Part shown: positions 1 through 58,686 of the stretch, one piece after another
Numbering within the stretch: the first letter of the stretch is position 1
How the letters are laid out: every line of letters begins with the position of its first letter
DNA from: Polytrichum commune
Taxonomy: Eukaryota; Streptophyta; Polytrichopsida; Polytrichales; Polytrichaceae
Direction: 5' to 3'
Length of the DNA: 64,000 nucleotides
NCBI GenBank assembly: GCA_950295325.1
Contig: OX485805.1
Span: 11,840,501-11,904,500, forward strand
The notes under the pieces: generated by a model
The model's input: only the letters and a program-made list of their open reading frames with translations
What the model was told of the DNA's origin: nothing
Databases searched by the model: none
Translations under genes and position numbers: made by a program

Positions 1-290
1 AAGTATGAGCGGTGCGCACTGAGCACGGGACTTATTGTCCTTAAATGTTCCAATTAAAGAAACCTCTATCGGATCATGAAATATGTTCATCAGAGACCAT
101 TGCTTTTTTGGAATGAAAAGGAAAACGCAATCTATCCTAAACCCTAAACTTACTAAAACCCATGCACGAGGATTCAGAACAGAAAGACTACTGTGCTGAA
201 GTCATGTTCCCAAATATTGGAAGTATGCTTATGATTCCCTGCATTCAAGTCTGATCAGACACACATAGCTTTCATACAGAAATTACTTAC

Positions 291-2173
291 CATAAGTTCC
301 TTAACCTCGCTAAGAGTAAGTGCTCGTCCACGATGTGGTCCCAGCTCAATGGCTTTCTAGGGGCTGCAACTCCACTTCACCATGCACACATCCATATCAC
401 CATATCTTTAGATTTGCAACTGTCCACTAATTATACAAGTAATGTAATATCCAAAATCCCATGGCACCCAAAACAAAAATATAAATCTCTAATGTGAGCA
501 ATACAATCCCCCAGAGTGAAAGACTGAAAATGCTGAAAAGATCCCGTACTTCAGATAGGGGAGGTGGAACCTTACGAAAGAAGAAGATGCTGACAGCCTT
601 TCAACACACAAACTGGCACTCCAGAAGGCAGAAGCCCCTGCAAGCACAAGTTTCCAGTCATATTGTAGGTCTAACCAACCAAGCACTTCAGAAACCTTGT
701 CGATGTGGATAATTGTGAATCCTGGCTCAAGTACTTCTAGATTCCGCATATTGCCTAGCATCTTCAATGAATCATGGACATGCCAATGTCAATTAACAGA
801 GACCATCATGAACTATTAGATGTCAACATACACAAAGCACAAGCATGTGACCTCCGAGCCAACAGTTCAAAGAGCAGAAAGTATATTAAGGTTTTGAAAA
901 TAATGAACTTGTTTGAAGCAACCAAATGCAGTAAACTGGAGTGCCAATCACTTACGATTCCAATACAAAAGTCACTTGAACCTGAAGCTACGAATTTATT
1001 GCAATTACTCACTGCCAGGTCCGTTATGCCACCCTGTGACCATATACACTCAGTGACTTAAGTGTTCAATGAAAGCAGCACAACTTTACATGCACAGAAG
1101 AAGAATTCATCTGAGATTCCAAATCCAAATCTTAACAACACGTACTCCACAGCCCTAGATGGTCAAATAGGACCATAGTATGTCAATGACCCACGTATGA
1201 AAACTGGCTACAAAGCAGGGGACAGCATACCTCATGGCCCCGACAACTGCGCAAACAAAGTTCTGGGTCTGCTGCCCGTAACATTCCTAGTTGGTCATCG
1301 GAGCCCATGATCACAGACTGTCCCATGCCATCAAACACCGCTACACCACAAGTCAACCCACATAAATCAGTCTGACATTTTCATATCTATTCATCACAAA
1401 ATTTTGTACATGGTAACAGAACATTGTAATAAACAAACTATCCTTACAAAAAACTTCCTTGGAGAGTTGGCATTTTCTCTGGCAGTTACCAATACAATTT
1501 ACCATACTAGGCAAAATTATTCATTGGAATCCTTACAAGTCACTGCATATCCGACCAGAATTGAAGGCATTCAGACACATATCAAGGAGAAATTGGAATT
1601 CTTGTGCCCCTACACATTGTGCCAACTGGACACTAACTGCCCATGAATTAGCTCAGGGCATACCACAATATACAGCTTTACAATGGCCCCTGAGGTTTTT
1701 GATGATGTCTATTCCATCCGCCAGAAAAGGTGGCTTGAAAATCACATAACTTGGAGTGCGCACTGAACGGACTTGGTGGTGTTGAGCAAAACCTCTACCA
1801 AGGTGATGTAACATCAATCTGTGAGCCTGTCAACAGCCTATCTTTTGTTACAAAGTTGTAGCATGCAGACCCTTTGACAATGGCTAGCTTGAAGTGAAAA
1901 AATAATGAGTCTAGCTGACACCAAGGCAATACATCCACATGTCAGTCTGATCACAATATCAGAAAGTCCAACTTGGAGAAACCATTAAGTATCTGGGCAG
2001 TGCTCTAAAACACCACTGGAAATATTGTTCATCCAAAACTAAGAGTGTGATCTGCATTAAATAAAACTGCATAGAGTAAGATGGCCAACCACACACCTGT
2101 TCAGCATGCCAGTGCGACCACCCTAATTGTTGAGTCCACCTAGAAACATCCATGCACATATTGCTCCTTGCAG
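291..2173 (-). pseudogene. Partial duplicate of PHIP/BRWD WD40 exons, possibly part of a chimeric gene
   Basis: Six exon-like blocks match six exons of the PHIP/BRWD gene in the same order and strand: 2097-2166 (or to 2173), 1664-1826, 1231-1340, 956-1033, 576-637 and 291-374. Introns between them also match, so this is a DNA duplication and not a retrocopy. All blocks are open and all have GT-AG borders. The block at 576-637 has lost 45 bases, the one at 291-374 has gained 6, and three exons of the parent (G, H, I) are absent; all three changes keep the frame. In the 110-base block I count 17 differences, 13 changing an amino acid, including loss of the WD-repeat tryptophan, so constraint on protein sequence looks weak. 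The first two parental exons are absent. Similarity reaches at least position 250 and may continue off the left edge. Pseudogene or chimeric gene is undecided. Confidence 0.8.
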
Positions 2174-2336
2174 CTGAAGTAGAGGTTGACGTAAATCAGT
2201 TCTGAGGTGACAGAAATACTGGGACATATTCTATTTCCATAAATTACAACATTGAAGCATCTGAAAACCATCTAGGTAGCCAATAAATTATCCAAAAAAG
2301 ATATCACAAAGACAAACTTGGATTCTAGATATATGA

Positions 2337-4105
2337 CTAACCCTGCATGTCAATCTTTGCTTGTCGGTTGGCACTAAGTTCTCTTGATATGATAGACATA
2401 TCTTCTCTAGCTCCAGCTTGGGACGATGTTCCAGGAGGAGTCACTTCAAGTATGTCATTCCCTTGTTCCTCTTGATATGCTGGAGAAACATCTACCTCTA
2501 AATTTACAGCACTCCCCATCTTAAGTTCTTCGCTCCCAACATCCCGTTCAGATGGATTAACAATTTCTATTGACATGGATATTTTCATTCCATTGCAATC
2601 ACCTTGACTACCAACAACCGATTTTTTAATATCCCCAGGATCAGATTCTCGAGGAGCATTGGTTAGAAGGTTGTGTTCTCTTTTTTTGTATATGCAAGGT
2701 AATGAGGGTATGACATCCACCAGAGCCAGTTGCTTATCTTCTCTTATGATCTCCTCTACAGATAAACCACCATTTTGTGTTGATGTTGCCTCTTCTGCAA
2801 TTCCAGGGAAATAAATTTGCTCACATGATGATTGTCTATGGGACTCTATGGAGAAACTCGTGGTGGATAACTTTGTGCAACAAGTTGCCAGAATTGAAGT
2901 CTGGCACAAGTCCATTGCATTTCCAAGATCATGGGGAGCAGCTTCTACTTTTAGTTTAAGAACAGCTTCATTCCCATCTCCCAGGCTAGCAATATCGTCT
3001 CCTCTTGCAGATACATGTTCCTGTATTGTAGTTTCATGTTGTGAGTCTGCTCCATTTCCATCAACATTGCTTGTTTGTTCTTGTACACAAAGAGAGACAA
3101 CCTCACATCTTTCTCTGGAGGGGATTGATGATTTCTCTTCACCTGCTTCCGATTTTCCAGAAGCACTGGCTTTTGTAATTTCTTGGCCCTGTACCTCAAC
3201 ACTTGGGAACTGCTCGGGACTTGCTTCGTTTAATACAATTGACTCTTCGCCATCTTCAGCTTGTAACTGGGTTGATCCTTGAAAACCCTCTTGCAAGCCC
3301 AATTTTATGGATGCTTGAGTCCCCACAATAAGATTCTCCTGAATGACAGCATTATTTCACTGTGTAATGTTGCATTTGAGAGATCCAATACATACAGACT
3401 AATTCCTAAGAGCATCACAAATATTCCAAAATGAATTTCCAAATAACTGATGCAAACTTCCTAAGCAAATAGCTGCAGTCATTCTTTTCTAATGGAATTG
3501 CTAACAGTACAATTAACTAAGATTGTTCTTCATTTTGGTCCTTGAATTGATGGGTAAAGTGAAAACACACCACTAATGCAGATTGAAGGACCTCCGCCAT
3601 AACTCACCATAACATCATCACCCAGTACCAACTTGTTCGTGTAGATAAGTGGCAAGACCGTAGCAAGACCTGCAACCAATTGAACACTTTATGCTCCCAT
3701 TTCTGTTATACATACTCCTTTTTTACCTATAGAAAGAAAACATTCTAAAATCACTTTCTGCAATAAATACAACTAAGTCCTAAATTTGTACTTCCCTATA
3801 CATCTTGGTGCGAAAATTAAGGTGTAGATTTTCAATCACAACAACGCAAGAGATTTTGAAATAACTAAGTCGTAACCTGAATATTCATCTACAATGACCA
3901 TCAGGGTGCTCTTAATGTGCTGTCCTGGTGTTTGAAGACTCTTGTCTGAAGTGAACCATAGTTTATGTAGCCTACACGTAATCTTCTGGTTGGCACATAC
4001 AATTGCCCACCAACAATAGCCTAATGACTGACACATGCTAGATTTGCAATGTGAACCTTGTTTTGATTCGTTTCTGTCAACAACACCATTCATATTGAAT
4101 TTTAC
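2337..4105 (-). CDS. Unidentified acidic Ser/Glu-rich protein, 3' part of gene (three exons)
   Basis: I do not recognise this gene. Three exons fit with consistent phases: 3877-4105 (phase 0 in, 1 out), 3608-3669 (ends phase 0) and 2342-3338. The last is open for about 330 codons and starts after a good CAG acceptor. Its protein is rich in Glu, Ser and Gln, with no hydrophobic segment and no domain I can name, so it looks disordered. Translation either stops at TAG 2337-2339 or leaves through the overlapping donor GTTAGT at 2341, phase 1. The 5' end is not resolved; a possible leader exon with a CAG/GTATAG donor lies near 4892 and promoter-like sequence near 4950-5000. The duplicated WD40 exons begin immediately downstream on the same strand, and the phase-1 donor would join them in frame. 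Confidence 0.55.
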
Positions 4106-7014
4106 CTAAACTGATATTCAAATTATGTTTCACATATCGAACATGAACACGAAAGAAAAGGAACATGACAGCAGATGAGGATCCAGACATTCTTAGGTGA
4201 GAATTTCAAAAATATATATCAAAGACTTGGTTACATGACTCGCATGAAACTATGTTCTTTTTATCACATGTATAGACGTTTCTGTGAAATGAAATAAAGA
4301 CAGAGGACATTATCTCTTTTATTCATCAACTTGACAACTGACATCATAAGAAACATATATGTTTGAGGATTACCTTACCTCGAGCTTGCCACTTGAACCA
4401 AAAGAGAGAATATGTAGTGCCAATTGAAAAGCTTAGTCTGCAATGTACAACTTAGCAGCTGTCAGCTCTCAACTAACCAACTGCTACGAACAGAATTTCT
4501 TCAGGTCAAAAAGAAATGCAATAATATGGGAGCAAACATTTCCAGCTATTCCACAGCACGAGGATTCTAACGAAAAGATACAATCAACATAACAACCCAT
4601 TACACATACAATCGCTTCAGGTGCCCAACCAAATTTCTGCCATGACCTAACCCGAGTTGCAAACAGGGGTCTCCAAATTTGACTCACAATTTTGAAAACC
4701 CATATGAGGGCGCATAACACAAAATTCACATTATCCGGGGATCTTGTAAGAAACCCAACAATCACATCATATGAAAACCTAAACCCATGCTGACTCACCA
4801 GCTAAATGAACCGCCCACAAGTCAAGCGCCTGAAGCTAAGAAGGGAAGCGTGCGCCAGACGAGACCAGGCAAAATCTCCAAAACCCTATACCTGAATGCA
4901 AGTAAACTGTTTGGCACAGTGCGGAAGCCTGAAACCTCGTAAAGCAAAAGCGTGATGTATAGGTATTATATTGCGGTGGACTCAGGGGAAGGGAAGAGGA
5001 TGTACTTTTAAGTATGAGTCTCTGTCCTGCTGTGTTGTATTCCTTTGTGTGCGCTTGCCTTGATGGTAGACAAATGCGGAGGGAATAACAAAGTCAGTCT
5101 AAAACCGCAATTAAGTAAGCAGGCCTTAAACAGACACTTTTAGCTCTGGAACCACTTCTCGTAGGATATGAAACACACAATTAGTGCAAGATGATTTGGT
5201 AGCACTTCCAAATTTTGTCCATAGCCATTTTCCTCCTTTTTTTTGGAGCTCTTATGAATATCATTCTCATTGTCAAAATGAAAATTCCTTTTTTAATAAA
5301 TCATGATGTAGGTCACCCAATAATGTTGACTATTGAGTTTAGAATATTTAACAAATTTTGAGATCCTAGTCCAATCTCCTGTATACACGTCTTGTGTTGT
5401 CCATTTAGGATTTGTAGCCAAATTTAGCCCATTTACAATAGCTGCTTATTTATTCTATGCCCCATGTGTAAGTTTGAGCAAAACAAAAATTGTGAAGTTA
5501 ATGTCTGCGTTAGTAAACGTAAGTCATCAGCTTCCATGTACACATTTGTCATGTTTATGGTTGTTTAACACACATACCTGCACTGTATTGAAGATTTTTC
5601 TAAGACAAGGATGTGCATGTCAACATTGATCATGTTATATCAAAGTCAGGAAATCATCAAGAAGGTGGCTGGCACAGTGTTATCTAACACTATAAAGTCT
5701 TGTGATTTGATGAGTTGGTAATGCATGATCTTGGGTAGACACTCATGCTGTATGAAGACTGAATATATTTACAATAACCTTAAGCTCCAGGTCAAAAAAA
5801 GAGCATGATTTGTGGGCTTTGAAACCAGAATATTTTGATTGAGTGAACAGATGAAGCACACAAACAACCTAAATAGGAACAAAAGTGCACGACAGGAGAT
5901 ATGATCAATGTATCTTACAAAAAGTAGTAAGTGTAGAGTATGTGTAGAATAGCTCTTGATGATCAGGAATAGGAAAGCAAGTAACCCTAGAGAAAAGAGG
6001 AGTGCAGAGAGGTTCATTTCTTCCAAAAACCAAGAAATCTTCTGCAAGATCCCAATTTCGGCAAATAATGGATTAGATTCGGCCTTTTATTCCTTGGGAT
6101 GAAAGCATTTTCTTTTGCAATTTCAGAGACAAGCTTTACGATTGATGGTGTACCTCATCAACCCTAACTGTGTTCAGTGCCGGCTTGTCACACCAGGACA
6201 AATGTAAACAATCTTTCATTCAAATTGTGAATGTCACTGACACTGCATGCATGGTGTTCAGACCACTCCCACACTAACTTATGATCCATGTTGGAGACTT
6301 TACCAGCTCACAGGGTCTGCATTATTGTATCTCTTCCATGTCATATAAGGTTCTGTGGGAACACTTGTACCAAAACTGAAGAAATGGATACTACGGTGCT
6401 TTTGAGGGCACAAAAAGAATTTCCTGTGTCAGCCGTTGTTTTATCTATCAAAAAACTCAGGTAATCACTATCCTGATAGGGCTGTGCTCCAAAGCAATGT
6501 TAGAAGGGCACACAACCAAGCCAAATTTCAGAACTTCCACATTTGAAATAGTGTGTGCCTGGTTTATTGATGGCAGATTCCTTACTCAGAACCATGACAG
6601 CTATATTATGCTCTCCTATTTGAAATGACATCACATTAAGACCAAAAAACATCTCTTGGCGTAGTTGAGACTCCAAAATTGGAATAATTACCATGAGCAA
6701 CTTGACTTCATAAAATTTCGAAGAGGAAAAACCCGACACAACTACAGATTTTGCTTGTAAAATCATAACCCAGACATATGGCAAGGCCAGCTCTTAAAAC
6801 CAAAGCCTATCCAGTGCCATGCAGTGCATGGTAGAAAACAATTGTGATTAAATTTAAGTTACACATAAGATGGTCCTGATAGACCAGAACAATATGTAGC
6901 TGCCCCATCTGACCAAATGTTGTTTGGACCAGGGGCCTTCCACCTCATCAACTCCAAAGCTTCGTCATGTCAAGCGGTTGTCTAAACATTTCTGTCAGGA
7001 GCCTTGCTAAACTG
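4106..7014. other. Region between the acidic-protein gene and the PHIP/BRWD gene
   Basis: No convincing coding exon was found. About 4106-5000 should hold the upstream exons, leader and promoter of the minus-strand acidic-protein gene. About 6300-7014 probably holds the 3' untranslated region of the PHIP/BRWD gene, whose stop is at 7015. The middle is AT-rich with only short chance ORFs. Confidence 0.4.
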
Positions 7015-10000
7015 TTATTGCAAGGGTGCCAAGATGAAACCTACCAACCGTTCCATCTTGCTTACCAACTTATGATTTGGGCCACAAAATAGTTCAACAT
7101 TTGTGACCAGTAAGCGTACATCATGTTCTACAGCCTCATCACTCCGATAATAGTCCTTCTGCAACCTCTCTCGAATTCTATCCAATGTGAGTGGAACTGG
7201 TACTCTGCACATTCAGCAACAAACATGTCTCAACGCGAGTTGGACAATTCTATGATGATATTGGTTGCAGACTACCATACAAATTTAAAACAAACACAGA
7301 ATATTTGTAAGTTGTGAATCTTGGTCCATTGAACTCATAAGAACGGCAATATGAACAAAAGCCATAAATGTACACTATACCCTTGCTTTGACTCTCCAAG
7401 ACTTTTTGATCTATACCAGTTCTAAATAACTGTCACAAACTCTGCAAGTGATTCAGAAAAGTGCGCTTGTTGAACTCCTGGTTTGGAAGTGGTGACCTTT
7501 TGAAACAGTGTGTTAGTATAAAAACTAAACCTATGTATAAATTCAACATGGTGTCGAACAAATGAGTTGAGAGTGTACTCATTCAGAAAGTTGGGATCAT
7601 CAGTGACCAATGACATTAACTCCTTCACACCAAACTCATCCTGCATTTGAGAAACAAAAGGAATGTTGATCAATAATCAGAACATGCACTCCATCCTATC
7701 TGAAAGGAACATCAACCCAGATCATTTAAATCCCAATCTCTCCTTGCAATATTAGTGGGTGTCCAGTAGAGGGGGTTTCCCAGTAACTCAATTCTTGCGA
7801 CTCCTGACCAAAAAATGTTTCTCAAGACAGTGAATGAGCAATGAATCAGGACGACTCCAAAAACCAATGTCGCTTTGGTAACTGACTTTGGCATCAAAAT
7901 CCTCTAATGCAACTGAAACCCATAGTTCATACCTCATCATCGTAAAGAGTATCCTCAACGCTGCAAACAGCATTTAATAGATCTTCCTTCAGTTTTTCTT
8001 CAATTTGCGGCACACTCCATCCAGGTATTTGACAATATTTATCAAAAAGCTCCCAAGGACTGTGTGCAGTTGGTTCTGGGGCTCCTTTGTAGGAAACTAG
8101 ATATTTCTCCCAAGGGCTTCCAGGGAAACTATCAGACTTCAGCTTTATGGATTTGATTCGACCATCCCACCATTGGCCTTTGTAGTCCACACCATTTGCC
8201 CACCAGACTTTACAATGGTCACGAGGAACCCAACCTTTGGCCATAGAAGCATCGTACCTACTTTTCTCAACTATAAAGTCAGGATGATCAGTGAGCTCTG
8301 GCAAAGTCAATGCAAAGCTTTGGCGGTAGGCCTGTGAGGAGGCATCTGTGAACTCAAGCTGTATCATGCAACTTGTACTTCCCAATCCAGTATCAATACT
8401 GTAGTTGAGGCCTACAATGCGGCAAAATTCTACAGGACCAAGTCTGTACTTCGTCCATGGACCCCTTTCATTCCTCGACTTTTTCAGGAACTCTTTGTGA
8501 CCCTGCTTCACAGTATCCAAACATTAGATCTCCAAATAGAAGAATCAACTACATAAATTCAACATGTGAAAAATTGCTACACAAGTAGTATCTTGATCTA
8601 TCCAAACTCCAATATATAAGGGGCTTGAACCAGGTAGCCTACTTGCAGAACAGAGGAGAAATCGCATGATGAAAGAACACATATTTCAAAACAGAAAGGC
8701 TGGTGTGAAAGGCTTTCTTGATCGGCAGCACTGAATGTCTCTAAATGAGAACCAAGGAGGAGTTTCTCCTAGAAAAATTAAGGACTTCCTCACCTGTTGT
8801 AGGTAGGCAACCTCATCACCAAATTGAGGAGTATAGTGTGTGCCTGGCTCCACCTCTGACATTAGCAACCATGCATTATTAATAGCACGGGGCCTCTGCT
8901 TTGACGCACGCCATCCACCCCGAAGAGCTGAATGTGAGACGCCAACCTTTACCTCCACAACCTTTGTCTTCTGGGTGAGATCTTGCCTTTTCTGTTGCTG
9001 TTGTTGTGCAGCAATACTTGCTGACCGTGTCTGCTTTCCCCTGCCTCCCGAATGTCCATCCTGATGATACTCATCCTGATGCTTCACAGTGGTCTCTGGA
9101 CACTTCACAGTAATGCGCAAAGGCCTCTCAACTAAGCTTCCACTATTATGAGCACTATCAGATGGAATGCATCTCCGCATACGCACAGACCGATTCTTGG
9201 GAGAGTCACTCTCCTGTCGCTTGTGACTTTTCGGCTTCTTCCTACTTTTCTGTACTTGTCCTTTCAAGTGTGAAGCTGAGCGTGATGTCCCTGCCGTGTC
9301 TTCATCAGCAGTATGAACATCTGCCCATGGTTGTGCATCAACAGCAGAGTACACATGGCGTGCAGCTAAAGAATTCTCCATTAAATCTGAAGACACCTCA
9401 GCAGGTATTTTCTTCTCGTGCCTTTGCATTCTTACCTTTCCCCACTTTACTCTTTCATCACCACTCACCTCTGTGTACCCCTGTACGTCTTCAGATCCTT
9501 CACTGTGGCTCTTCTCATCCTCACACTGGATGTTTTCCAACAAGGTCACCAAGCCCAGAAAAACGTTCAGTACAATGCTACTACTAAGGAATGGAAATTA
9601 TTACAAATTGCATGTACTGGGAACAGTGACTGTTCCTCCATTCCTCAAAAGAACCAATGAATAATGGAATAAAATATATAAAAGCCTAGAATCATTGTCC
9701 AGGACTCTCATTGTAGTAACTAGAAAGCCAGAATACTCCAACAAGACAGTTGTTAAATTTACCTCTAAGAACTCACTGAATATTGAAGGACAGGGCTTCG
9801 GAAATCTTACATGGTCCCTATCTGTTTCTAAACCTTCCTTCTGCAGCATTTCTTGTTCGTCCTCTTCATGGTTGAGACCGTACTCATCTCCATGATCATC
9901 ATCATCATCATCGTGTGGGATATATTCCCTGGAAATCTTAACCTCTGCAGTTTGTTCCCGATCATTGAACAACGTACACTGGTGCTCAAGATCAAAAGAT

Positions 10001-13000
10001 GTATTATTCACTTCCTCACCCTTGAGAAACATTCTTGATTCAGGTTTTGGCTTGTGAGATGAATCACCATTAGTTGCTCGACCACTGGTGCTAGTAGATG
10101 TTATATGCCTCTCAGCCTCCTCCAAATGGCCAATATCTCTTCCTGCCTCTGCAGCAAGGAGTTTGTCACTACAATCAATATGCATGGATAAATGAGAAGA
10201 TGGTTCTCCTGTACAAGTTACTTGCCGATCCAACTGCTGAAGCCGATCAGCTTCTGGCTCAAGCTCAACCTTTTGCTTGTTATTTGCACACCGATGCAGA
10301 AAATTCTGGGATGTTCCCCCTTTCTCTGCCAGTCTAAGATGAGCAGGCTGTTGAGGTTCATCTTCTAAATTAAAATCAGACACAATCTCATGTTTAATAT
10401 TGGCACCCCCCTCAAAAAAATTATTTTTCTGTTCAGATTTGGACAAACTGCTGCCTCCAGCCCCTGCCACTGACACAGCCTTGCCTTTCTTTCCAACCCA
10501 TTGCTGCTTCTTCTCATCATGACTCAGCCCCTCTTCACCCGACTCAGACAATGCAGTGCTCAATTTTGCTGACCCCCTTGTCATGACTGGCAAGACTGAT
10601 TCGGAGTCTTCATCTTCTTCATCACCACTCCCCTGGTCAATACGCTTTGGAGGTTTGATAATTAATTTCCTGAAAGACTTTTGACTCTGCTCCAGTGCAT
10701 GTGGAGTCTCTGAGGTGGAAGCAACTAAAGGTGGTTCATCAGTTATTCCAACACTCAGTGCAGGCCTGTCAGCCTGGATAGTAGGACTGTTTGATGCACC
10801 TGAAGGATTTCGAAATTTGAAAACAATCTTCCGCGGACGCTGTGATCTTGGACGCCTGCAGTCTCCAACACTGTCTGCCTCAGGTTGGGAGGTTGAAGCC
10901 TTGTTTTGGAAATTAGGTCGGTCATCATCCTCCTCACCATCTTCCTGCAGACTTTTTCTCAGAGATCGAAGCTGTGGCCTAGGTTCTTCAATTGCAGCAG
11001 TGACTTCCCTCTCTGCTCGTCCAGAACGCCTATCCAATACTACTATTTTACGCTCCTCCTCAGAATCATCATCCTCTTCTTCATCAGGAGGTGGATTGCG
11101 GAAAGAATCAAATAAGGTGAGGGCATTGCGAGCAGCTTGTCGTTTCGGTCTGGATGAGGTGGGCTCTTGACTGCTGACCATGTTCACCCTGCCTGCCCTG
11201 CCTAACCCATTTCGTGACACCTTAGATTGGCGACCCCGTGGTGGTCGATGCTTGCTTGATTCATGGTCGTTACAGGTTCGTCCTCGTACTCGTCTCCTTG
11301 AGGCAGTCCGCCCAGCCTCCTGGAACATCACAGTTGAGGCTAAGTGGAGATTTATGTGAAGAATATACCTCAACCACAAACGACAAGAGGTTTCTAAATA
11401 AGAATACAAGTGGACTTTAAAATTGCAAACACCCATAAATAGATCTGGAATGACAAGGTCCACCAACAACTGACGGCTGGATAGCACTAAAACTACCCAG
11501 CTATCTGGCTAGCTGATTTTCTTACGAATAATCAGGACAACATCTGGTAAGACATGTATACCTTTTTACGTTTATTCCTTCCCGATCGTCGCAAGCGAAT
11601 TGTGGCTTCTACTCCCTCTTCTTCACTATTAGATTCCTCTTCACTTAGACTCTCATAACCATCCATTTCTTTTTCCTCGCTCAAGCTTTCGTCACTTGCA
11701 CTGTAATCAGATCCTGTGTCTTCACTAAGCCCTACAACTTCTTGTTCCCAATCCATAGCCTCTTCGACCTCTGGAGGCTGTTCCACCCATCTATTCCTGT
11801 CTCCATTCGCTGCACCTTGCCGGTCATGCCGCTCAGGTGAAGGGGGGACGGGTGGCAGAAATGCTGTAGGTTGCTCAGGAGGAAAATATGTGACATCATC
11901 ATGGGTTCCAATAGAAAGCATCTGAGTGGGTGGCTGCCACTCAAATCCCAGATATGCCAATCGACGCTGCTGGTATATAGTCTGATATGGCTCAGGATAA
12001 GGAATCATGCCTGCAGTATGGGTGAGAGTGTTATAAGCAGAAGTGGCTTGAGAGAATCAACTATCACTTGGCAATTGGCTACAGGTAAACAATGAAGATA
12101 TCAAATCAGAGATAAGAATGTAACTCAAGTAACTCTTGATGATGTAACAATCTAGAGCTACAGGGAGCCCACCCACCAGCATCACAAAGCAGATCCCGCA
12201 GATTACGGTTGTGAGGAGTGAGCTGAGTTTCCTGCAATAAAGATTAAAGGTTGGTGCATTCCTCAGTAATTATCCAACCCAGATGGGCACAGGTAAATAG
12301 ATTTGACAATGTTCCATACTTGAATACATCTGCTAATGTGAACCCTCATAAACTCACTCCTAAATGAACCTTGTAGAGGTCTTTTGTGGAACTTCTTCAA
12401 CAATTCCAAGTAGAAATATATTGTGGTTAAATAAAAAGTCTTCCAAATATGAAGGTGACACCTGAGTGCTTACCACATCCAACACATTGCCATGTGTATC
12501 TCGTGCTAAAGGTCGAAAATCCCCCAGAAAAAACTGCACAATCCAAGGATCCATAAGAAGGCATCTCAATCCAGCTTTTTTGCTATAAAACATGATCAGG
12601 AGAAGTCCTGATAATGTATTCAATGACATGTAAAACGATATCTTTACATGTTGTAAAATTGTAGGTCTAAATTTTGCAGTGGCAACTCCATAAATAGATA
12701 CTATAATCAACAAAATGCAAATCTCTATCAATCATCCAGTCCAAATGTCAGATGTAATCTATATACACCCCTCTATAAGTTCCATGAGACAAGTGCAATT
12801 ATTGGTTTGTATTAACCTCACCTGGTCATACTTTACGTCCTTTTCAGACATTTTAGAGCCTGTGCCAAATATATAAACTTGCCCAACTTCATCAGACACC
12901 ACAAGAGAGGTACCATCACTGCCAAGCCCACTTAAAGAGGTGAGAAACTGCAGAGTTCCAAACATAGACTCTAGACCGACATCAAACAACAATTGTACAA

Positions 13001-16000
13001 AATCAATCATTCTGTAGACTCCTCTTTCACACAACCAAATTCTTCCACTAGATTAATTGATTACAAACAAGCGCAACATCCAAATAGGTAAATTGATTGA
13101 CAACATACATACAAAACACTGGGAAATATCCAACTTACGGAGAGAAGTTGCCATCCACCAATGTATATTCCCCTGTTTCATATACCTTGATGGGACATCC
13201 CTCCCATATCTGCACAAGATAAGACGTAATTAGACACTGAAGGATGTTGTGAAGTTTCCAAATGAATAGCTAATGGGTTTTGAGGTGACCAAAAGACTCA
13301 CATCCCAGATGATAACACGACCATCATAACCTGCACTCATGGCTATCCTTGGATTCAGAGGATGCACATCCAGTACATAGGTCTGCACATTACCAATCTC
13401 AACACAGGTCAGGAAAAAATGCTCAAGCCGGTTCAGGTGGCATTTAAATTGACATGTACACAATAGAGCTTTCACCTTGGACTTAAAAGGAAAGATACAC
13501 ACATAGCTGAGAACTCAGGTGCAAAGAATTTCCATACCGGCTTGTCATGGCCTGTGAGAGAATGAACTAGACTCCCATCAGCAGCATTCCAAACACAAAT
13601 CCTGTGATCTGACCACATGCAGAATAGACCTCTATGTAAGCATTGAGAACCAGGAAATTTGAGTGATGTACCCAGCCACTTGGTGGAATAAGAGTGGAAA
13701 ATTTGAAGTTGATGATAGCATTGTCGAGATTCAGATAATTAGTGGTTACAAGGTTCTCTATTACATGCACATTTCCTTGCAGCATCTGCAATTTAAAGAA
13801 CAGACTTGCCAAAATAAAAAGACAATTACCAGGAAAAGGCAACAAGATTTCAATAAAAACAAAGAGACTATTCTCACAGCTTTTACCATGAGAAAATGTC
13901 ACTTGACTACACAACCTTGAATTCTCTATAGGTTAGCTTATATTGCTAAGAATCAAAATTATATGACATGGCCTGGGCACCCCATTCCTGAAAACTAAGT
14001 TGATAGATCTAATTCAAAATTTCATCTTTTCACTTTTCAATTTCAGCAGGGAAAACAATGGAGGAATAAAAGAGTGAGATAATGTCAACCGAGCACAAAC
14101 AGAAAAACAACTTAAGCTTTTTGCGCAGAAATACAGCACACAGCAGAGACACATGAAATATCAGTCTCATTATACAAAAGCCATACAAACAGTGCCAGGA
14201 GAGTACACATTGCAACACGCACCCATAATTGCTGCAAGGACAAAGCGATTGTCAAGGCTCCACACAATCATATTTACTCCTCGAGGGGTTGGAAGCAGGC
14301 GCTGTCTTGGACCATTTCCTCTAGGAGGCAGAGGTGGCATTGGAGGAGGTGGGACACGCAGATGATATGCTTTCTGCCATCGACCCACTTTTACCTGCCA
14401 AATATAGCAAGCTTCTTACTTCTTGCAACATATATGACTTTCTTGAGTAAATCATTCAGAATGAAAAACAATTCTCTCTGTACATATAATCCAGTGCATT
14501 TGAAGGTAATTAAACACTCATACTTTTTATCCATCTTACTGCATTCTATTGTTACATTCTCTTCTGAAATAATGAAATAGAATAACATCAATTGTGCAGC
14601 ATTGAAGACATCAAAACAAGTGAAGTTCAGAAGTTTGTTTGTATTTACATTTGGTTTCAAAGATTGGAGCATCCAAATGATGGCCGTGCCGTCTCTTGAA
14701 CAAGTAACAATGCTATCATGTGAGAACCTGCACATTGAGCTCAAAATTGTCAGCATCACAACAAGATCACCATCCTGAGAAGACTTCCTCAGAAATACGG
14801 TAATCATGAGAAGTCTTTGCCATAGATATCTGAAGTTCAATCCCCTCTCTGTGCACAGTACAAAGTGCCATTAATTCTGTCTCTTCAATCCATGATTTCA
14901 ATCCAATCGCCCTTTCATACAATTATATGAAACATCTTGAGTGTTGCAGAGCATTTCAAAACATAGCTTCCAGAAAGTGCTGTAACTTGTATACCAGAGA
15001 CTAATATATGTTCTTCAAGCTGAAGCCAACAATGTTAAGCCAAGCCGACTGGATACAAAAAGAAGACAACAGAGTAGACATATAGAAACAAGTAGGCTGG
15101 TATTATTAAAAAGAACACTTGGTTCGGATCCACCACCTACAAACAACCTGATCATCATACTAACTACCACATGGAAATTACTAACCATGAGTTCCTAAAC
15201 CGAGCTGAGTGCTCATCCTTGATGATGTCACTGCTCAATGGCTTCCTAGGAGCTGCACAGCCACTTCACAATGCACACATCCAAACCACATTAAACTTTA
15301 GATCTGCAAATCTCCGTCAATCATAATATCCACCACTTATACAAGGAATGTGATTACAAGTTTTCTTGCAAAAATATGACTTGGAAAGACTGCTCCTTAT
15401 CAGTATAATTGAGGATGTCACTATGAAAAATGGTGGTTCACCTGAACTGGACATAGTTCACATCATTTTCATGACCTTTCAGCGTGTCCATCTCATAGTT
15501 GGGTCTCCCAGTGACATCATCATTCCATTTGCATGCGTCCCATACCTGCCCAACACAAGGAGCAATTTAATGGTAACTGGGGAATACCTCACAACCCAAA
15601 GACTTCAGAATGTCCCTTATTTTGAAGTTCTCCTAATAAGAGCAATTATACAAATATACAGCCATGAGGCCAAAAATTATACACCACTCTGTACCAGCCT
15701 CTTGTGATGCACTGAAGTCATAACTAGTAAGAGAGACAACTAGTATGATAATCTTCTAGCTAAGTATTTCTGAATCACAAGCAAGGTAAGCATAATCACC
15801 CTCGCAATTTTGTCTGAGCTTCCTGTCACAAAAATGCTTCCATCAGCATTAAAAGCACAGCAAAAAATCTGATTGCATCCAGGAACAGTCGATGGCGCAG
15901 CAGGAGCTGTAGGCTTTGGAGCTAAGACAAATACACCAAGGAATTCAGCATAATTAATAGCCAGAAAACAATTCACAGCAAGCACAGAGGGACAGTAAAT

Positions 16001-19000
16001 TTTGTAATATTGTTCCAACAGAAACAATGAACCAACTCACTACAATCCTACATAATAGAAAAGAGATTGAACCAGATTACAATATCAAATAAAATCACAT
16101 AGAAGCCAAGGACATGTGTGTGGGAGTAAACAAACAAGAAACTGCCTCCTGCTGCTGTGCAGAAGCATATGAAGTTACTTAGAGCATTCATCTCCTTACC
16201 TGGGTTAACATCTTTTGGATTGGGCATATAAACTCTCGAATGAAGAGTTGAGTCCGAAGCATCCCAAATGCGGCATGTCCCATCATCAGAGGAACTATCA
16301 AACAAACACACAGAATGAACAACCTGTCTACTCTTAAGTGAACACTAGTCGGTATAATTACAATCTTTTCAGATTATATCCTAATCCCACGGCACCCAAA
16401 ATAAGAATATAAATAATCTGTATTGAAAACAATAGAATCCTCCAAACCCGATGCCTAACTATGCTGCCAAGAATACTAACTTAGCAAAGGAAGGTGGGAT
16501 CTTACGAAAGAAGAAGATGCTCACAGCCTTGCCGAGGACTGAAGGCAATCGCAGTAACTGAAGCTGTATGACCTCGTAACACAGAGACTGGCACTCCAGA
16601 AGGTAGAAGCCACTGCAAGGAAAAATATTCCAATCATACGTTAGGTCTAGAAACAACCAATCTAAAAATCTTATCCATGTGGAATATTAATGCAATACTT
16701 ATTCACGTACTAGAAATACTGGTTCGCATATACTGGACAGGCCAATCTCAATAAACAACCATCATGACCTATTTAGATATTCAGGTACACAAAGCACAAG
16801 TATGTGACCTCCAATCCATGGACTTTAAAAAAAAATCAGGACACAGCAGTCTAGAGAGCAGAAAATATTAAAAAACACTTGAAACCAATGAACTTGATTG
16901 AAGCAACCAACTCTCATAAAACTGGAGTGTGCATCACTTACAATTCGAATACAGAAGTCATTTGAAGCCGAAGCTACATATTTATTGCGATTACTGACTG
17001 CCAGGTCCGTTATGTCGCCCTGTGACCACAATTGCTCAGACACTTAAAATGTTCAATGAAAGCAGTAAATCATTACAATCATAGAACAAAAATTCATCAA
17101 CGACTCCAAAACAAAATCTACAAAACACATACTCCACAGCCCTAGATGATCACATAGGACAATAGTATGGCTTGGAAGCAGCAGACACCATACCTCATGC
17201 CCCCGACAACTGCGCAAACAAAGCCCTGTTTCTGCTGACCAGAACTTTACTAGTCGATCGTCGGAGCCCGTGATCACATACTGTCCCGTGCCATCAAATA
17301 CCGCTATACCACAAGTCAAAGAATACAAGTCAGTCTGGCATTTTCCTATTGATTGATCACAGCCTTCCATAACCTCGACTAAACATCACAATATAGTAAT
17401 AAACAAAGTATTCACACACAAAATTCTCTTGCAGAGTAAATGTATTCTCTGTCAGGACTAATATTGCTTGACAACAAGGCGAACTTACTCGGTCAGATCC
17501 CTACAAGACCAGTCGTCAGATTGTTTGAGAATGGAAGCCTCTCCAGAACAGACCAGACACAAAGATATTCAGACAGATATCAAAGATAAATTGGAACTTT
17601 ACGCCTTGAGTCAGCTCAGACCATACCACAATATACGGCATTGCGATGACCCCTGAGTTTCTTGATGATCTGTATACGATCTACCAGAACAGCTGGCTTT
17701 ACAATCACATAACTCGGAGTGCGTACTGAAGGGGCTTGATGGTGTCGAGCAAAGCCTCCACCAAGCTGACGTAGCATCAATCCGTGAACCTGTTGACAGC
17801 CCTTCTTTGGTTACAAACGTGAACTCGGTCTTGCAGGAAGACTTCTGACAACAAGCTGGGAAAGGTGGGGTCTGTACATCCCTCTGCCCTTCCTTCTCTG
17901 GGGTAGGACATGACATACCTTGCAATCCTTTCACCTTGGTATCATCTATCCTTGCAGTCTGTGACTGGAGAAAATTTGAACAATACAAATCTTTGAAGTG
18001 AAAGATAATGAGCCTAGCTGATGCCAAAGGCAATACATCTCCTATATAATTGTCACAATGTCGTAACATCAAACTCATATGAACCACCAGATCTTCTAGT
18101 CAATTCTCTAGAAACTATTGTTCATCCAAAGCCGAGAGTGTAAACTCCATAAAACAACATGGATGGAGCAAGATGGTCAACAACACACCTGGTCCGCATG
18201 CCAGTGAGGCCACCGCAATTGTTTAGTGAACCCAGAAACATCCTTGCACACATTGCTCCTTGCAGCTGAACCAAAGGTTGAAAAAATTAGTTCAGAGGTG
18301 ACAGCAATATTGGGACATACTCTGATTAAAAATCAGATTCTAGATAGATGGAACAACATTTCCACTAGAAGGAAAGCAATGTGTCGTGACAGAAGTGCCA
18401 TACTCATCAACAATCCATTGCAGAAACTTCTTCACCTAAAAATAACCAATGATGAGCCTTGTACTTAACAAGAATCAGAAAAAAGCAGACTGGTAACTAC
18501 CAAAGTCCCAAGGAAATATGATCCACTGCCACTTGATCATGAATTTGAGAGGGAAACTTGAAGTGCTTACAGTCAATAAGAGAAAAATTTCCAGTTCCCA
18601 GAAGTGTAGGAACATCAGCTGCGGTGGGTAGTCTGGCATGGGGCAATTCCAACCCTCCTAGCAACACTCGATTTTGCAAAAGAAGTTGCTGTAAGAGTTT
18701 CACCAGATGATCTTGTTCTAGTGTTGGATTTCTGGAGACAATGCAATTGGAATGCTCAGAGACAGTCACATGCAAACAAACCTGGCCAGGCTAATTTATA
18801 AGTATTAAAGAAGATCAAAACTATCATGTCATTGAATTGAAAGCATGCATAATCAGTTCAAACACCATGCCAGGTGAGATGTCTTTGCAAATAAATTCAA
18901 TCAGGGTCCACAGTCAATGGGTGTTTATGGTACAAGTCGCATGTTTCAAACAGCGTCTCACATAGAAAACCGATCCACATATCTTTCGGATACAATATAT

Positions 19001-19972
19001 CACACAATCCATGATTCATTTTCTTAGAAATATGCGAACTATGTTGCCCAATTAGCTCAGTCCGTTGCTTTCACATTTGCCAGTGACCACATTTGTAGAA
19101 TACATAACTGTGAACAGTTCATGGCCCAACTTCTAGTTTATCCAAGATAAACATCCTCTACACTGCTTAAAAAAAGGAGCCTCTAAAAGGAAAGATGGAC
19201 AGTCTAAGTCATAGATTTCATGTTTAGCTCAGGTAAAAGAAAACTTGTAAACAGGACATGAGTGTAGAACACTGAAGAGAAAGGTATGCCACAAATCCAA
19301 AATTGTAAAGCCCTATGAATATTATCAAGATAAAATACAAGAGCAGGACTCTTCAAGAGTTTTGCTGCAATAAGGGGTCATAATATCAGAACTTTTACCA
19401 GATTTCCCATGTTCTTCTTACATCAAGTTTAAGCATGACGCAGGACTGTTCAACCTATATCCTGTTACTAGTGGACAAATGTGAAACAAAACAGAAACAG
19501 AACAGCCTTCAGTATCTTGTCACCACAAAGACACCTACATTCTTAGAGGCAAAATTCCTGTTCCTGCAAAACATGTAACAACCAATCAGATGAGAGATTA
19601 TAAAATGTACCTTGACAATATATCTTGATAGGTCAAAGGGAAGGACATGCCATCCTCTTTTTTGTCAACACCTTCTCGGGAGAACACTGCATGGTATCGT
19701 CGAGGAAGGAGTTTGTGCTGCAAGATTTCGTTTGAAAGATGCACAAATGCTCGTTGGCACGGCCCACTTGATAGAAAGTGCATAATCAGAAAGTAGACCT
19801 CGGAAATGTCCACATCGACATTAAACTCAGGAAGGGCACCGGTCCTCCATGGCGCTCTGGAAGGCTCCCCAGCTGCACTTGCATTCATGTGACGTAACTT
19901 GTCCGGTGGTTCTTGCAATACAGCCATTGTCATCGTGGTGGGAGCTGATGAGTCGACCATACAGATCACCAT
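7015..19972 (-). CDS. PHIP/BRWD-type WD40-repeat and bromodomain protein
   Basis: Plant orthologue of the PHIP/BRWD/WDR9 family, nuclear chromatin proteins that join a WD40 propeller to a Tudor-like region and a bromodomain. Coding exons: 19611-19972, 18501-18731, 18189-18258, 17627-17789, 17194-17303, 16942-17019, 16506-16612, 16200-16294, 15800-15921, 15442-15545, 15186-15263, 14649-14727, 14223-14394, 13538-13608, 13302-13382, 13139-13209, 12822-12918, 12474-12533, 12177-12231, 11562-12010, 9811-11319, 8794-9525, 7933-8502, 7579-7640, 7015-7204. All phases agree, giving 5,718 bases and about 1,905 residues; Arabidopsis relatives are about 1,700. Residues 1-200 hold the N-terminal motif EVYFLIMHFLSSGPC; WD repeats span about 255-700 (GSDDRLVKFW, SSDDGTCRIWDA, SAGYDGRVIIWD); 740-1630 is acidic, basic and disordered; 1633-1822 carries the VWWANG...WWDGRI block; 1840-1905 is a short divergent bromodomain. 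An in-frame stop precedes the first ATG. Confidence 0.95.
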
Positions 19973-21300
19973 TCCTCCGCTATGAACTCAAAGCGTCACC
20001 ATACCTGAAGAAGATGACACCCCACCCAAAAAGTCACAAAAAAAAAACCTACATTGTCTGCTCCTTTCTTGCCTATTCTCAAATTGACGGATACGGTGAC
20101 GGTCTTGAAGGAAGAATTAGGGTTTCTTGTCCTGTCCGTGACAACATCACATCGGCAACTGGGAACCTACATTCAGTTTTAGGTGGGGACACCATAATGA
20201 GCAAACTAAATTAGCCTCAAGAGATGGCTAATTATGATGCCCAGCCCATCCACCGAAAAAAAGAAGAAGAAAAAAGTGAATTAAAAAAAACTAAGGAAAA
20301 AAAGCTCCAAAGCATCACCATACTGTACGAAATCCCTAAACCCAATATCATCATGAAGACACTCTTAAGCATGCCCTAACCATTTCTACCTGCAGGAAAC
20401 CTCAGCTCCGTCACTGTCTCCGCCGAATCAGCATTCTGTATAAAATTCCGGTCCATGTACCACCGCTCCTTGGAATTCACGATCAACTAGCCATGTCCCG
20501 GGTTAAGGCTGCCCTCGGTCGGTCCAGGTTATTTACAACCCCACCACCAATTGCAGTTGATAAAAGCGAAACCGGTAGCCCTCTCGACACACAGCAGCCA
20601 ATTTCCTGATGCAGATGGATCCTGTCACATTTATCAGCTCACAACAGCGTGAAGAACAGAAATAAAACAAACCCCTGAATAATCATCTCCGATTCCCAAC
20701 CAGATCACCGATTGAGAAACCACCATACCGTCATGCATCAGCATATTCGACTCCTCGACCATTTGCATGGGAGGAGGGGGCGAAGTCTCCCACTCGACCA
20801 AACCATTTTCCAAACCCTAATCATCCAAACATCCGAATTGAACTCCAAAAAATTCTCTCCGCTCGATTCGTCACCATAAGAACCGTCCCAAACCTTCAAA
20901 TCACAATCTCCACCCAAACTTCCCCCTCCCTCCGCACAAATCCATGCAGCTACACTACTCCTCCATCCCTTCACCAAAATCCTCCGACCCACAAACACCG
21001 ACACCTCGAGTGAAAAAATCCACCCCCTTCCAATTCCCTCCAAGATTCCAAAATCCTTCGGGTATGTTGGCCCCACAGAGCTTTTTGGCAGCCGAGTCTA
21101 AAGTCTTTGCCACCACAGTCTCGGCGCTTGTACCCGCAGGAACCTGGCCTCCTACGGCCCGAAAATTGGTTCAAAAATTTACAAAAAAATCCAGTGCAAT
21201 CCAGAGCATGATTCGCGAGATGGCGAGCATGGATACATGATTTCAAAGGGTTCCCTCGGATCCTTGTGGCCTCCTTAGAGAGCACGAGGCAGGAGCGGAA
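19973..21300 (-). promoter_or_regulatory. 5' leader, leader intron and promoter of the PHIP/BRWD gene
   Basis: The exon carrying the start codon opens at 20004 after the acceptor TTCTTCAG, so a 5' untranslated exon should lie upstream. A matching donor (GACG/GTATGG read on the minus strand) sits near 20727. The GC-richer stretch 20730-21300 beyond it fits a leader exon plus core promoter. The antisense and sense ORFs here look like chance openings. The position of the transcription start is not visible. Confidence 0.5.
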
Positions 21301-30902: not shown

Positions 30903-31110
30903 AGCATTACAACGAAGGACATACATCGACTTCACAAGCTTTTGTTCTAAAAATAGCATTACAACAAAGAATAGGTACACATTGACTTCACAAGCCTTTG
31001 TTCTAAAAATAGAATTTCAACAAATAATAGGTACACATTGACTTCACAAGCCTTTGTTCTAAAAATAGCATTACAACCAAGGATACAGATTGACTTCAGA
31101 AGCTTTTGTG
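30903..31110. repeat. 56-bp tandem repeat, about 3.7 copies
   Basis: The block TTCACAAGC recurs at 30931, 30987 and 31043, a period of 56 bases. A diverged fourth copy, TTCAGAAGC, lies at 31095. Each unit contains a motif like TTTGTTCTAAAAATAG. The array starts immediately after the TAA duplication of the Tourist-like MITE. Confidence 0.85.
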
Positions 31111-56877: not shown

Positions 56878-57342
56878 CATTGTGCCCTTGAGGTGATTCT
56901 CAATGACACTCTGGTTGTTGCCTGGCCGATATGTTACTTGACCGAGGTAGTACTCTTAACGTCGCCACAGTGGATGCCACCTGTCAAATTTGCACCTATC
57001 ACACTGGCCAAGCAAACTATTTATATCGAGGATCCATGGATGTGGCTAAAACCAACTATCAACGGGCCACTGTTTGGTTAAACCTTTAGGGCCGCTTGGT
57101 TAAACTAAGGTAGAAATACCATAACCCATGAAAATAAGGTGATTCACATTGAAGATGTGGTCTTACAATCATGAGATAGTTTTCCAAGATAGACGAGAAG
57201 GATTCATGGAGAATGCAAGTTGTTTCATATTATTTTGTCTTGTACAAAAAATTCTACGATTTTTCAAAGTGGAAAGTTGTCAAACCCCCTACTCGTTCAC
57301 TAGATTCTCCTTACACCGAACATGGTAATTTGCATTTCCATA
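56878..57342. repeat. 465-bp direct repeat, left copy
   Basis: Nearly identical to 58222-58686 with a constant offset of 1,344 bases, so there is little or no net indel. The shared part starts CATTGTGCCCTTGAGGTGAT. An inner TG...CA pair could mark LTR ends, but the flanks show no target duplication and no primer-binding site follows, so a local segmental duplication is equally possible. Confidence 0.88.
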
Positions 57343-58221: not shown

Positions 58222-58686
58222 CATTGTGCCCTTGAGGTGATTCTCAAGGACACTCTGGTTGTTGCCTGGCCGATATGTTACTTGACCGAGGTAGTACTCT
58301 TAACGTCGCCACAGTGGATGCCACCTGTCAAATTTGCACCTATCACACTGGCCAAGCAAACTATTTGTATCGAGGATCCATGGATGTGGCTAAAACCAAC
58401 TATCAACGGGCCACTGCTTGGTTAAACCTTTAGGGCCGCTTCGTTAAACTAACGTAGAAATACCATAACCCGTGAAAATAAGGTGATTCGCATTGAAGAT
58501 GTGGTCTTATGATCATGAGATAGTTTTCCAAGATAGACGAGAATAATTCATGAAGAATGCAAGATGTTTCATATTATTTTGTCGTGTACAAAAAAAATTA
58601 CAATTTTTCAAAGTGGAAAGTTATCAAACCCCCTACTTGTTCACTAGATTCTCCCTACACCGAACATGGTAATCTGCATTTCCATA
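58222..58686. repeat. 465-bp direct repeat, right copy
   Basis: Second copy of the sequence at 56878-57342 in the same orientation. The 879 bases between the copies (57343-58221) contain no recognisable coding region. Confidence 0.88.

Follow-up and report, generated by a model that had tools for sequence, protein, structure and literature searches.

The question raised by a locus of Polytrichum commune (Polytrichaceae) is whether a gene fragment that has kept an open frame next to a foreign exon amounts to a new gene. The analysed stretch, hereafter the window, comprises 64,000 nucleotides (nt) of contig OX485805.1 of assembly GCA_950295325.1 (C3:11840501-11904500). Positions are window coordinates, marked w where needed, with negative values left of position 1. 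Near its left end a copied part of a PHIP/BRWD gene follows an exon coding for an acidic protein, and a preliminary description had read several frame-neutral changes in this copy as the sign of a living new gene, formed at the 3' end of a neighbouring gene. Here, we established the anatomy of the locus, two open conceptual products of a gene encoding a methyl-CpG-binding domain (MBD), substitutions that follow a near-neutral pattern in the inserted exons, and constraint on the gene's last exon. The reading that we favour tentatively, with close to an even chance of being right, is that the BRWD-derived exons in the window are a tolerated, frame-compatible passenger inside the MBD gene and not a selected new gene. 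The in-window locus is referred to as copy A (arm A) and its inverted partner as copy B. Genome searches covered 408 Mb in 64 contigs.

Anatomy of the inserted BRWD segment and its host gene

The acidic exon, the BRWD-derived fragment, the MBD gene and the parental BRWD gene were all on the - strand (Table 1). The source of the fragment had been proposed to be a partial duplication of a PHIP/BRWD gene, and such a parent was found on the same strand, with the copied exons at a distance of 15-16 kb from the fragment. The exon model of the parent contained 11 WD40 exons. Its N-terminal WD40 repeats scored 94.7 bits with Pfam on the spliced exons, and its C-terminal bromodomain scored 34.9 bits against a cut-off of 21.7 (E = 1.5e-8; peptide spliced by eye). 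Matches to ARF_AD (17.5 bits) and BRWD_AD (14.1 bits) were both below the cut-off. In excerpts of PMC11685440, PHIP/BRWD proteins are described with N-terminal WD40 repeats and a C-terminal bromodomain, and with an Auxin_resp-like/ARF_AD annotation under the cut-off in PHIPs, with which the parental matches agree. The parent gene resembled plant PHIP/BRWD proteins in its WD40 repeats and its C-terminal bromodomain, next to the weak ARF_AD/BRWD_AD matches, whereas the inserted piece differed in being a partial propeller without the Tudor-like region and without the bromodomain. A second BRWD gene was present on C7 (stretch 23727001-23733000) and served as the outgroup in the codon analysis below, where it was saturated with a branch length of about 5.

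Borders of the BRWD-derived exons were picked by matching to the parent gene. As previously described, the acidic exon ended at a phase-1 GTTAGT donor (2341), its 3' end reading ...ATG CAG G with 2342 as the last exon base; the acceptor ended at 2174, next to exon Ea (2173-2097); and the six in-window BRWD-derived exons, when entered in phase 1, followed the frame of the parental exons with no stop and with AG/GT borders throughout. Three parental exons (16294-16200, 15921-15800 and 15545-15442; 95 + 122 + 104 = 321 nt) were gone from the copy, and their loss joined two phase-2 borders, again in agreement with the preliminary description. The two length changes within exons, -45 nt and +6 nt, were likewise multiples of three as had been stated. 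Extension to the left of position 1, where later exons had been expected, showed a seventh exon, a partial eighth exon (Ej) and an in-frame MBD-gene exon (M1). The seventh exon and the M1 junction, both outside the view of the preliminary description, were also intact. Past w-954 the eighth exon passed in frame into the non-BRWD coding sequence of M1, and a 331-codon open reading frame (ORF) continuing the eighth-exon frame was followed by two further large ORFs. The fragment is therefore internal and not at the 3' end of its neighbour as had been proposed, since the MBD gene continues to w-4080.

The fragment and its parent were 69-77% identical, introns included. Because the introns were copied too, the copy was a genomic one, and an RNA-mediated copy was rejected. 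Splice borders of the seven complete BRWD-derived exons were canonical in 14 of 14 cases in copy A and in 13 of 14 in copy B, where the Ed donor was lost. Over the same exons the Pfam WD40 score fell from the parental value to 49.2 bits in A and 44.8 bits in B. The inserted fragment had neither a complete WD40 propeller nor a bromodomain, as three exons and 45 nt were lost and the fragment ended inside exon Ej. One of its introns held an insert of about 460 nt of non-BRWD sequence, and a genome search for a repeat origin of this insert gave matches only in A and B.

The peptide spliced from exons M1 and M2 matched the Pfam MBD domain with E = 1.2e-9 (2e-9 with the first-guess junction), with scores of 38.1 bits in A and 30.5 bits in B against the family cut-off of 21 bits, while a Pfam search of M3 produced no match. 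The Pfam MBD search of the genome showed three other loci (C1:69304739, C1:10183837 and C4:22422424); A and B were not listed there, the domain being split over two exons in both. The gene in A and B is like other MBD proteins in having an MBD above the Pfam cut-off when spliced, and it differs in the BRWD-derived insert before the MBD and, if the acidic exon belongs to it, in a long acidic N-terminal region. No third MBD-gene copy without the insert was found in the genome, and M3 matched only A and B. Apart from A and B themselves, M1 had a weak match (E 0.0013) in the acidic exon of B.

Counted from the acidic exon and with no start codon assigned, the conceptual product including the acidic exon, seven BRWD-derived exons, the partial eighth exon with M1, M2 and M3 was open over 1,427 codons and 11 exons. 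Skipping of the whole insert left 1,182 codons open in a second conceptual product, and skipping from the acidic exon directly to the acceptor at w-911 broke the frame.

Retention of the frame and the substitution pattern

Neutral drift was simulated for the seven exons at 0.142 substitutions per site. The probability of no stop was 0.039 and that of all 28 splice bases being kept was 0.020, with a joint probability of 0.0008 (0.0048 at 0.10 and 0.0004 at 0.16 substitutions per site). Copy A contained no frameshifting indel compared to 1.9-5.5 expected (P = 0.004, 0.011 or 0.147 by control rate). In the five exons of unchanged length, comparison of parent and A showed new stops at 0 of 167 in-frame codons, compared to 8 of 312 codons in the remaining sense frames and 7 of 475 antisense codons; this control includes changes on the parent branch, with 4 (other sense) and 7 (antisense) parental off-frame stops absent in A. 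The seven exons were stop-free in copy B as well, and the probability of both copies being open was 0.013. Overall, the open frame and splice sites of A were kept beyond neutral expectation, disruptions being rarer than drift predicts.

The amino-acid sequence showed a different pattern. Between A and B, the inserted exons (216 codons) had a nonsynonymous divergence (dN) of 0.092 and a synonymous divergence (dS) of 0.083, which gave a dN/dS ratio (omega) of 1.12 (bootstrap 0.57-2.55), and changes were spread over codon positions 1/2/3 as 18/19/18. In a branch model with four sequences and 215 codons, omega was 0.10 on the branches of the BRWD genes and 1.39 on those of the duplicates. Against the free model, omega = 1 was not rejected for the three branches of the duplicates (twice the log-likelihood difference, 2dlnL, 5.57; 3 degrees of freedom, df), and a single omega was rejected (60.8). 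The corrected run with 207 codons, which leaves out the less surely homologous last codons of the C7 BRWD gene, gave 0.09 and 1.53, respectively; omega = 1 was not rejected (2dlnL 1.6, 1 df) and a single omega was rejected (60.8). Exons Ea-Ec alone, which lie outside the conversion-like tract described below, gave an omega of 1.97 that was indistinguishable from 1 (2dlnL 2.8, 1 df). Of the 157 sites with residues common to both BRWD genes, 42 were changed in A, compared to 15 of the 50 other sites, which is about equal, and conserved residues were among those changed in the inserted exons.

The same exon comparison with M3 gave an omega of 0.48 (0.35-0.64). Five of the six M3 indels were multiples of three (3, 3, 12, 36 and 3 nt), and the remaining one of 16 nt was at the end, where B has three stops. 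Since M3 gave this value, the codon test has power at this locus. The inserted BRWD exons and the acidic exon are without detectable amino-acid constraint, and M3 is constrained.

A selected new gene, in which an acidic-WD40-MBD protein would act as a functional chimeric chromatin protein and its BRWD part, altered under positive or relaxed selection, would have been retained, is in our view improbable. The open 1,427-codon frame across 11 exons and the retention of frame and splice sites speak for it, and so do the free-model omegas of 2.8 before the split of the copies and 0.66 for A (6.5 for B), although these branch values are imprecise. A parent-like omega of 0.1 on the A branch was rejected (2dlnL 17), as was 0.3 on the pre-split branch (9.5), and the third-position share of changes leaned to A (10 of 22 A-only changes compared to 4 of 24 B-only changes; Fisher p = 0.054). 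However, the pre-split omega was not significantly above 1 and that of A was not significantly below 1 (2dlnL 0.8), with omega = 1 marginally rejected upwards for B only (4.8). The WD40 repeats were eroded, and in copy B the frame of the acidic exon is broken and one inserted donor is gone. The argument from frame-neutral changes to a living new gene is weakened: frame and splice sites were retained above the neutral level, but an omega of about 1, the loss of WD40-coding sequence and the decay of B speak against such a gene. An unlikely further reading is that the degraded WD40 fragment is translated within the MBD protein as a frame-locked, sequence-free spacer, with splicing and frame being selected and the amino acids not.

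Table 1. Coordinates of the features at the locus, in window positions.
Feature	Position	Strand	Remarks
Acidic exon	2342-3338	-	332 codons; phase 0 in, phase 1 out
Donor GTTAGT, phase 1	2336-2341	-	contains in-frame TAG (2339-2337); identical six bases in copy B
3' end of acidic exon	2340-2619	-	diverged repeat of M1 stretch w-1126 to w-1417
Possible exon upstream of acidic exon	3609-3670	-	splice-like borders; copy B holds 19 nt extra inside
BRWD-derived segment (in-window part)	279-2232	-	homologous to parts of 15174-18323
Exon Ea	2097-2173	-	phase 1 in, 0 out; parent homologue 18265-18189; acceptor ends at 2174
Exon Eb	1664-1826	-	parent homologue 17789-17627
Exon Ec	1231-1340	-	parent homologue 17303-17194
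Exon Ed	956-1033	-	parent homologue 17019-16942; donor GT in A, TT in copy B
Exon Ee	576-637	-	parent homologue 16612-16506; 45 nt shorter than parent
Exon Eh2	291-374	-	parent homologue 15263-15186; 6 nt longer than parent
Insert of about 460 nt in BRWD-derived intron	w-181 to 278 (in-window 1-278)	-	non-BRWD; holds TTAGGGTTT at 147-139
Seventh BRWD-derived exon	w-583 to w-661	-	complete, intact, outside window
Partial eighth BRWD-derived exon (Ej)	from w-911	-	BRWD homology stops at w-954
MBD-gene exon M1 (model)	to w-1846	-	fused in frame to partial eighth BRWD exon; can be entered in phase 1
MBD-gene exon M2 (model)	w-2104 to w-2662	-	large ORF
MBD-gene exon M3 (model)	w-2944 to stop at w-4080	-	large ORF
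Parental PHIP/BRWD gene	7015-19987 (extent approximate)	-	WD40 exons, bromodomain; stop 7015-7017
Arm A of inverted repeat	w-4158 to w6998 (in-window 1-6998; C3:11836342-11847498)		partner B = C3:11772221-11783345

The acidic exon and the integrity of the MBD gene

The ORF of the acidic exon (2337-3356) was open over 339 codons. The exon is best read as a putative 5' coding exon of the MBD gene, because its phase 1 exit fits the phase 1 entry of M1 and because its 3' end carries a diverged repeat of M1. In a local DNA alignment the last 280 nt of the exon scored 108 with M1, compared to a maximum of 55 in 200 codon shuffles; the match as protein was weaker (score 65, equalled in 6 of 1000 shuffles). 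The same matching phases and repeated M1 part argue against unrelated neighbours, that is, an acidic ORF that is a gene in its own right with its end at the TAG at 2337-2339, with the BRWD fragment and the MBD gene as separate units. The position of this in-frame TAG inside the donor is in favour of such an arrangement, but the inverted duplication spans the interval from the BRWD stop to the MBD-gene stop as one unit, and we regard unrelated neighbours as very improbable.

Matches to the acidic exon in the genome were at three loci, namely the exon itself, its counterpart in copy B, which carries stops, and a fragment on C2. The latter (C2:14353756-14353986; L003:3756-3986) was a 231-nt piece with 89% identity to A and 79% to B, which suggests that a gene fragment was captured there. 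An import of the acidic exon from elsewhere was considered and was unsupported, the only other matches being copy B and this C2 fragment. Polarising the acidic-exon changes with the C2 fragment gave 8 A-only and 15 C2-only changes, too few for a decision. Copy B contains two tandem copies of the acidic exon's 3' part (L002:4406-4582 and L002:4694-4867; 78% alike), with a related unit in M1.

Several observations weigh against a passenger within an intact MBD gene. Differences between A and B in the acidic exon were flat over codon positions 1/2/3 (58/59/54), its divergence of 0.173 was like that of flanking non-coding DNA (0.166-0.195), and its two parts had omegas of 1.28 and 0.73, with both intervals including 1. 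An acidic exon that looks unconstrained would be explained equally well or better by a dead 5' half. For the MBD gene, neither a start codon nor the first exons were identified. The MBD-bearing exons M2 and M1 had omegas below 1, though not significantly so (0.42, 0.16-1.11 and 0.73, 0.37-1.6, respectively). The product of 1,182 codons requires a weak acceptor: the eight in-frame acceptors listed for a full skip had 2-6 T before the AG, and the BRWD-derived acceptor at w-911 had 8 T of 16. Finally, the retention probabilities given above were obtained post hoc and vary with the neutral rate that is assumed and with the indel control.

These observations bring in the closest rival explanation, which we consider a real possibility. 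Here the insertion would have cut the MBD gene, the acidic and BRWD exons would be dead DNA, and a shorter MBD protein would be produced, starting within M1 or shortly upstream of it, perhaps in the insert of about 460 nt. The flat acidic exon that diverged at the level of its flanks is in agreement with a split gene, as is the omega of about 1 in the inserted exons. The acidic exon was also broken in B by three single-base gaps and stops, its final part being open, while M3 was constrained and its indels were mostly in frame. The insert of about 460 nt holds, in addition to a pyrimidine-rich stretch, the TTAGGGTTT box, a possible promoter motif. On the other hand, the openness of the acidic exon in A would need luck (3.9 stops expected; P(none) = 0.019), the seven BRWD exons with their splice borders would likewise be intact by luck at the joint probability given above, and the putative promoter depends on a short motif.

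Inverted duplication and the proposed history of the locus

The two arms of the inverted repeat were 11 kb long and 53 kb apart. The duplicated unit extended from just past the BRWD stop to just past the MBD-gene stop and was inverted in B. In bins of 250 nt, divergence between A and B was 11-19% from w5000 to w1250, 2-11% and mostly near 5% from w1250 to w-2750, and 10-21% from there on to w-4000. To judge from this profile, the centre of low divergence of about 4 kb has the appearance of a tract converted between the arms. Both copies contain exons Ea-Ec with the introns between them at the outer divergence level, so the BRWD insertion is older than the inverted duplication. Loss of the three exons and the two indels within exons were likewise common to A and B; as these changes sit inside the conversion-like tract, sharing between A and B alone does not date them.

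In the passenger reading, a BRWD segment, introns included, would have been copied into the adjacent MBD gene on the same strand, where seven of its exons are now complete and an eighth is present in its first part. It would have landed between the acidic exon and the MBD-coding exons, with its right breakpoint within the eighth BRWD exon and in frame with an MBD-gene exon, and the MBD gene with its insert would later have been duplicated in inverted orientation. The inserted exons, which no longer form a complete WD40 propeller, would lie inside the transcription unit, and their inclusion (1,427 codons) or omission (1,182 codons) by splicing would leave the frame unbroken. Copy A would be transcribed through the insert, and the open frame may have survived since products that break the frame would harm the MBD protein.

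Some other sequences were observed around the locus. Copia-like retroelement ORFs, identified by eye, were present past the end of the MBD gene at a distance of a few kb (L001:66-2204), and a short tandem array with a spacing of about 91 nt was found near copy B (L004, C3:11763399-11764157). Elsewhere in the window, a direct repeat of 300 nt with 97% identity was located at 56878-57177 and 58222-58521 (1344 apart), and a 56-nt unit was present in three tandem copies at 30923-31090.

Chimeric genes formed by partial duplication or exon shuffling are a topic of PMC3395120, and the locus is alike in that an intron-containing partial copy was joined in frame. It differs in that the inserted exons are without detectable amino-acid constraint and the host frame is open with or without them. 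A literature search for a BRWD-MBD chimera turned up no paper on it among those listed. The locus is an internally controlled would-be chimera, with a constrained exon (M3), BRWD exons that are open but without detectable constraint, and another copy in which decay has set in. It separates an open frame from selection at the protein level, two signals that are often merged, and, if translated, the union of two chromatin-reader genes would be interesting.

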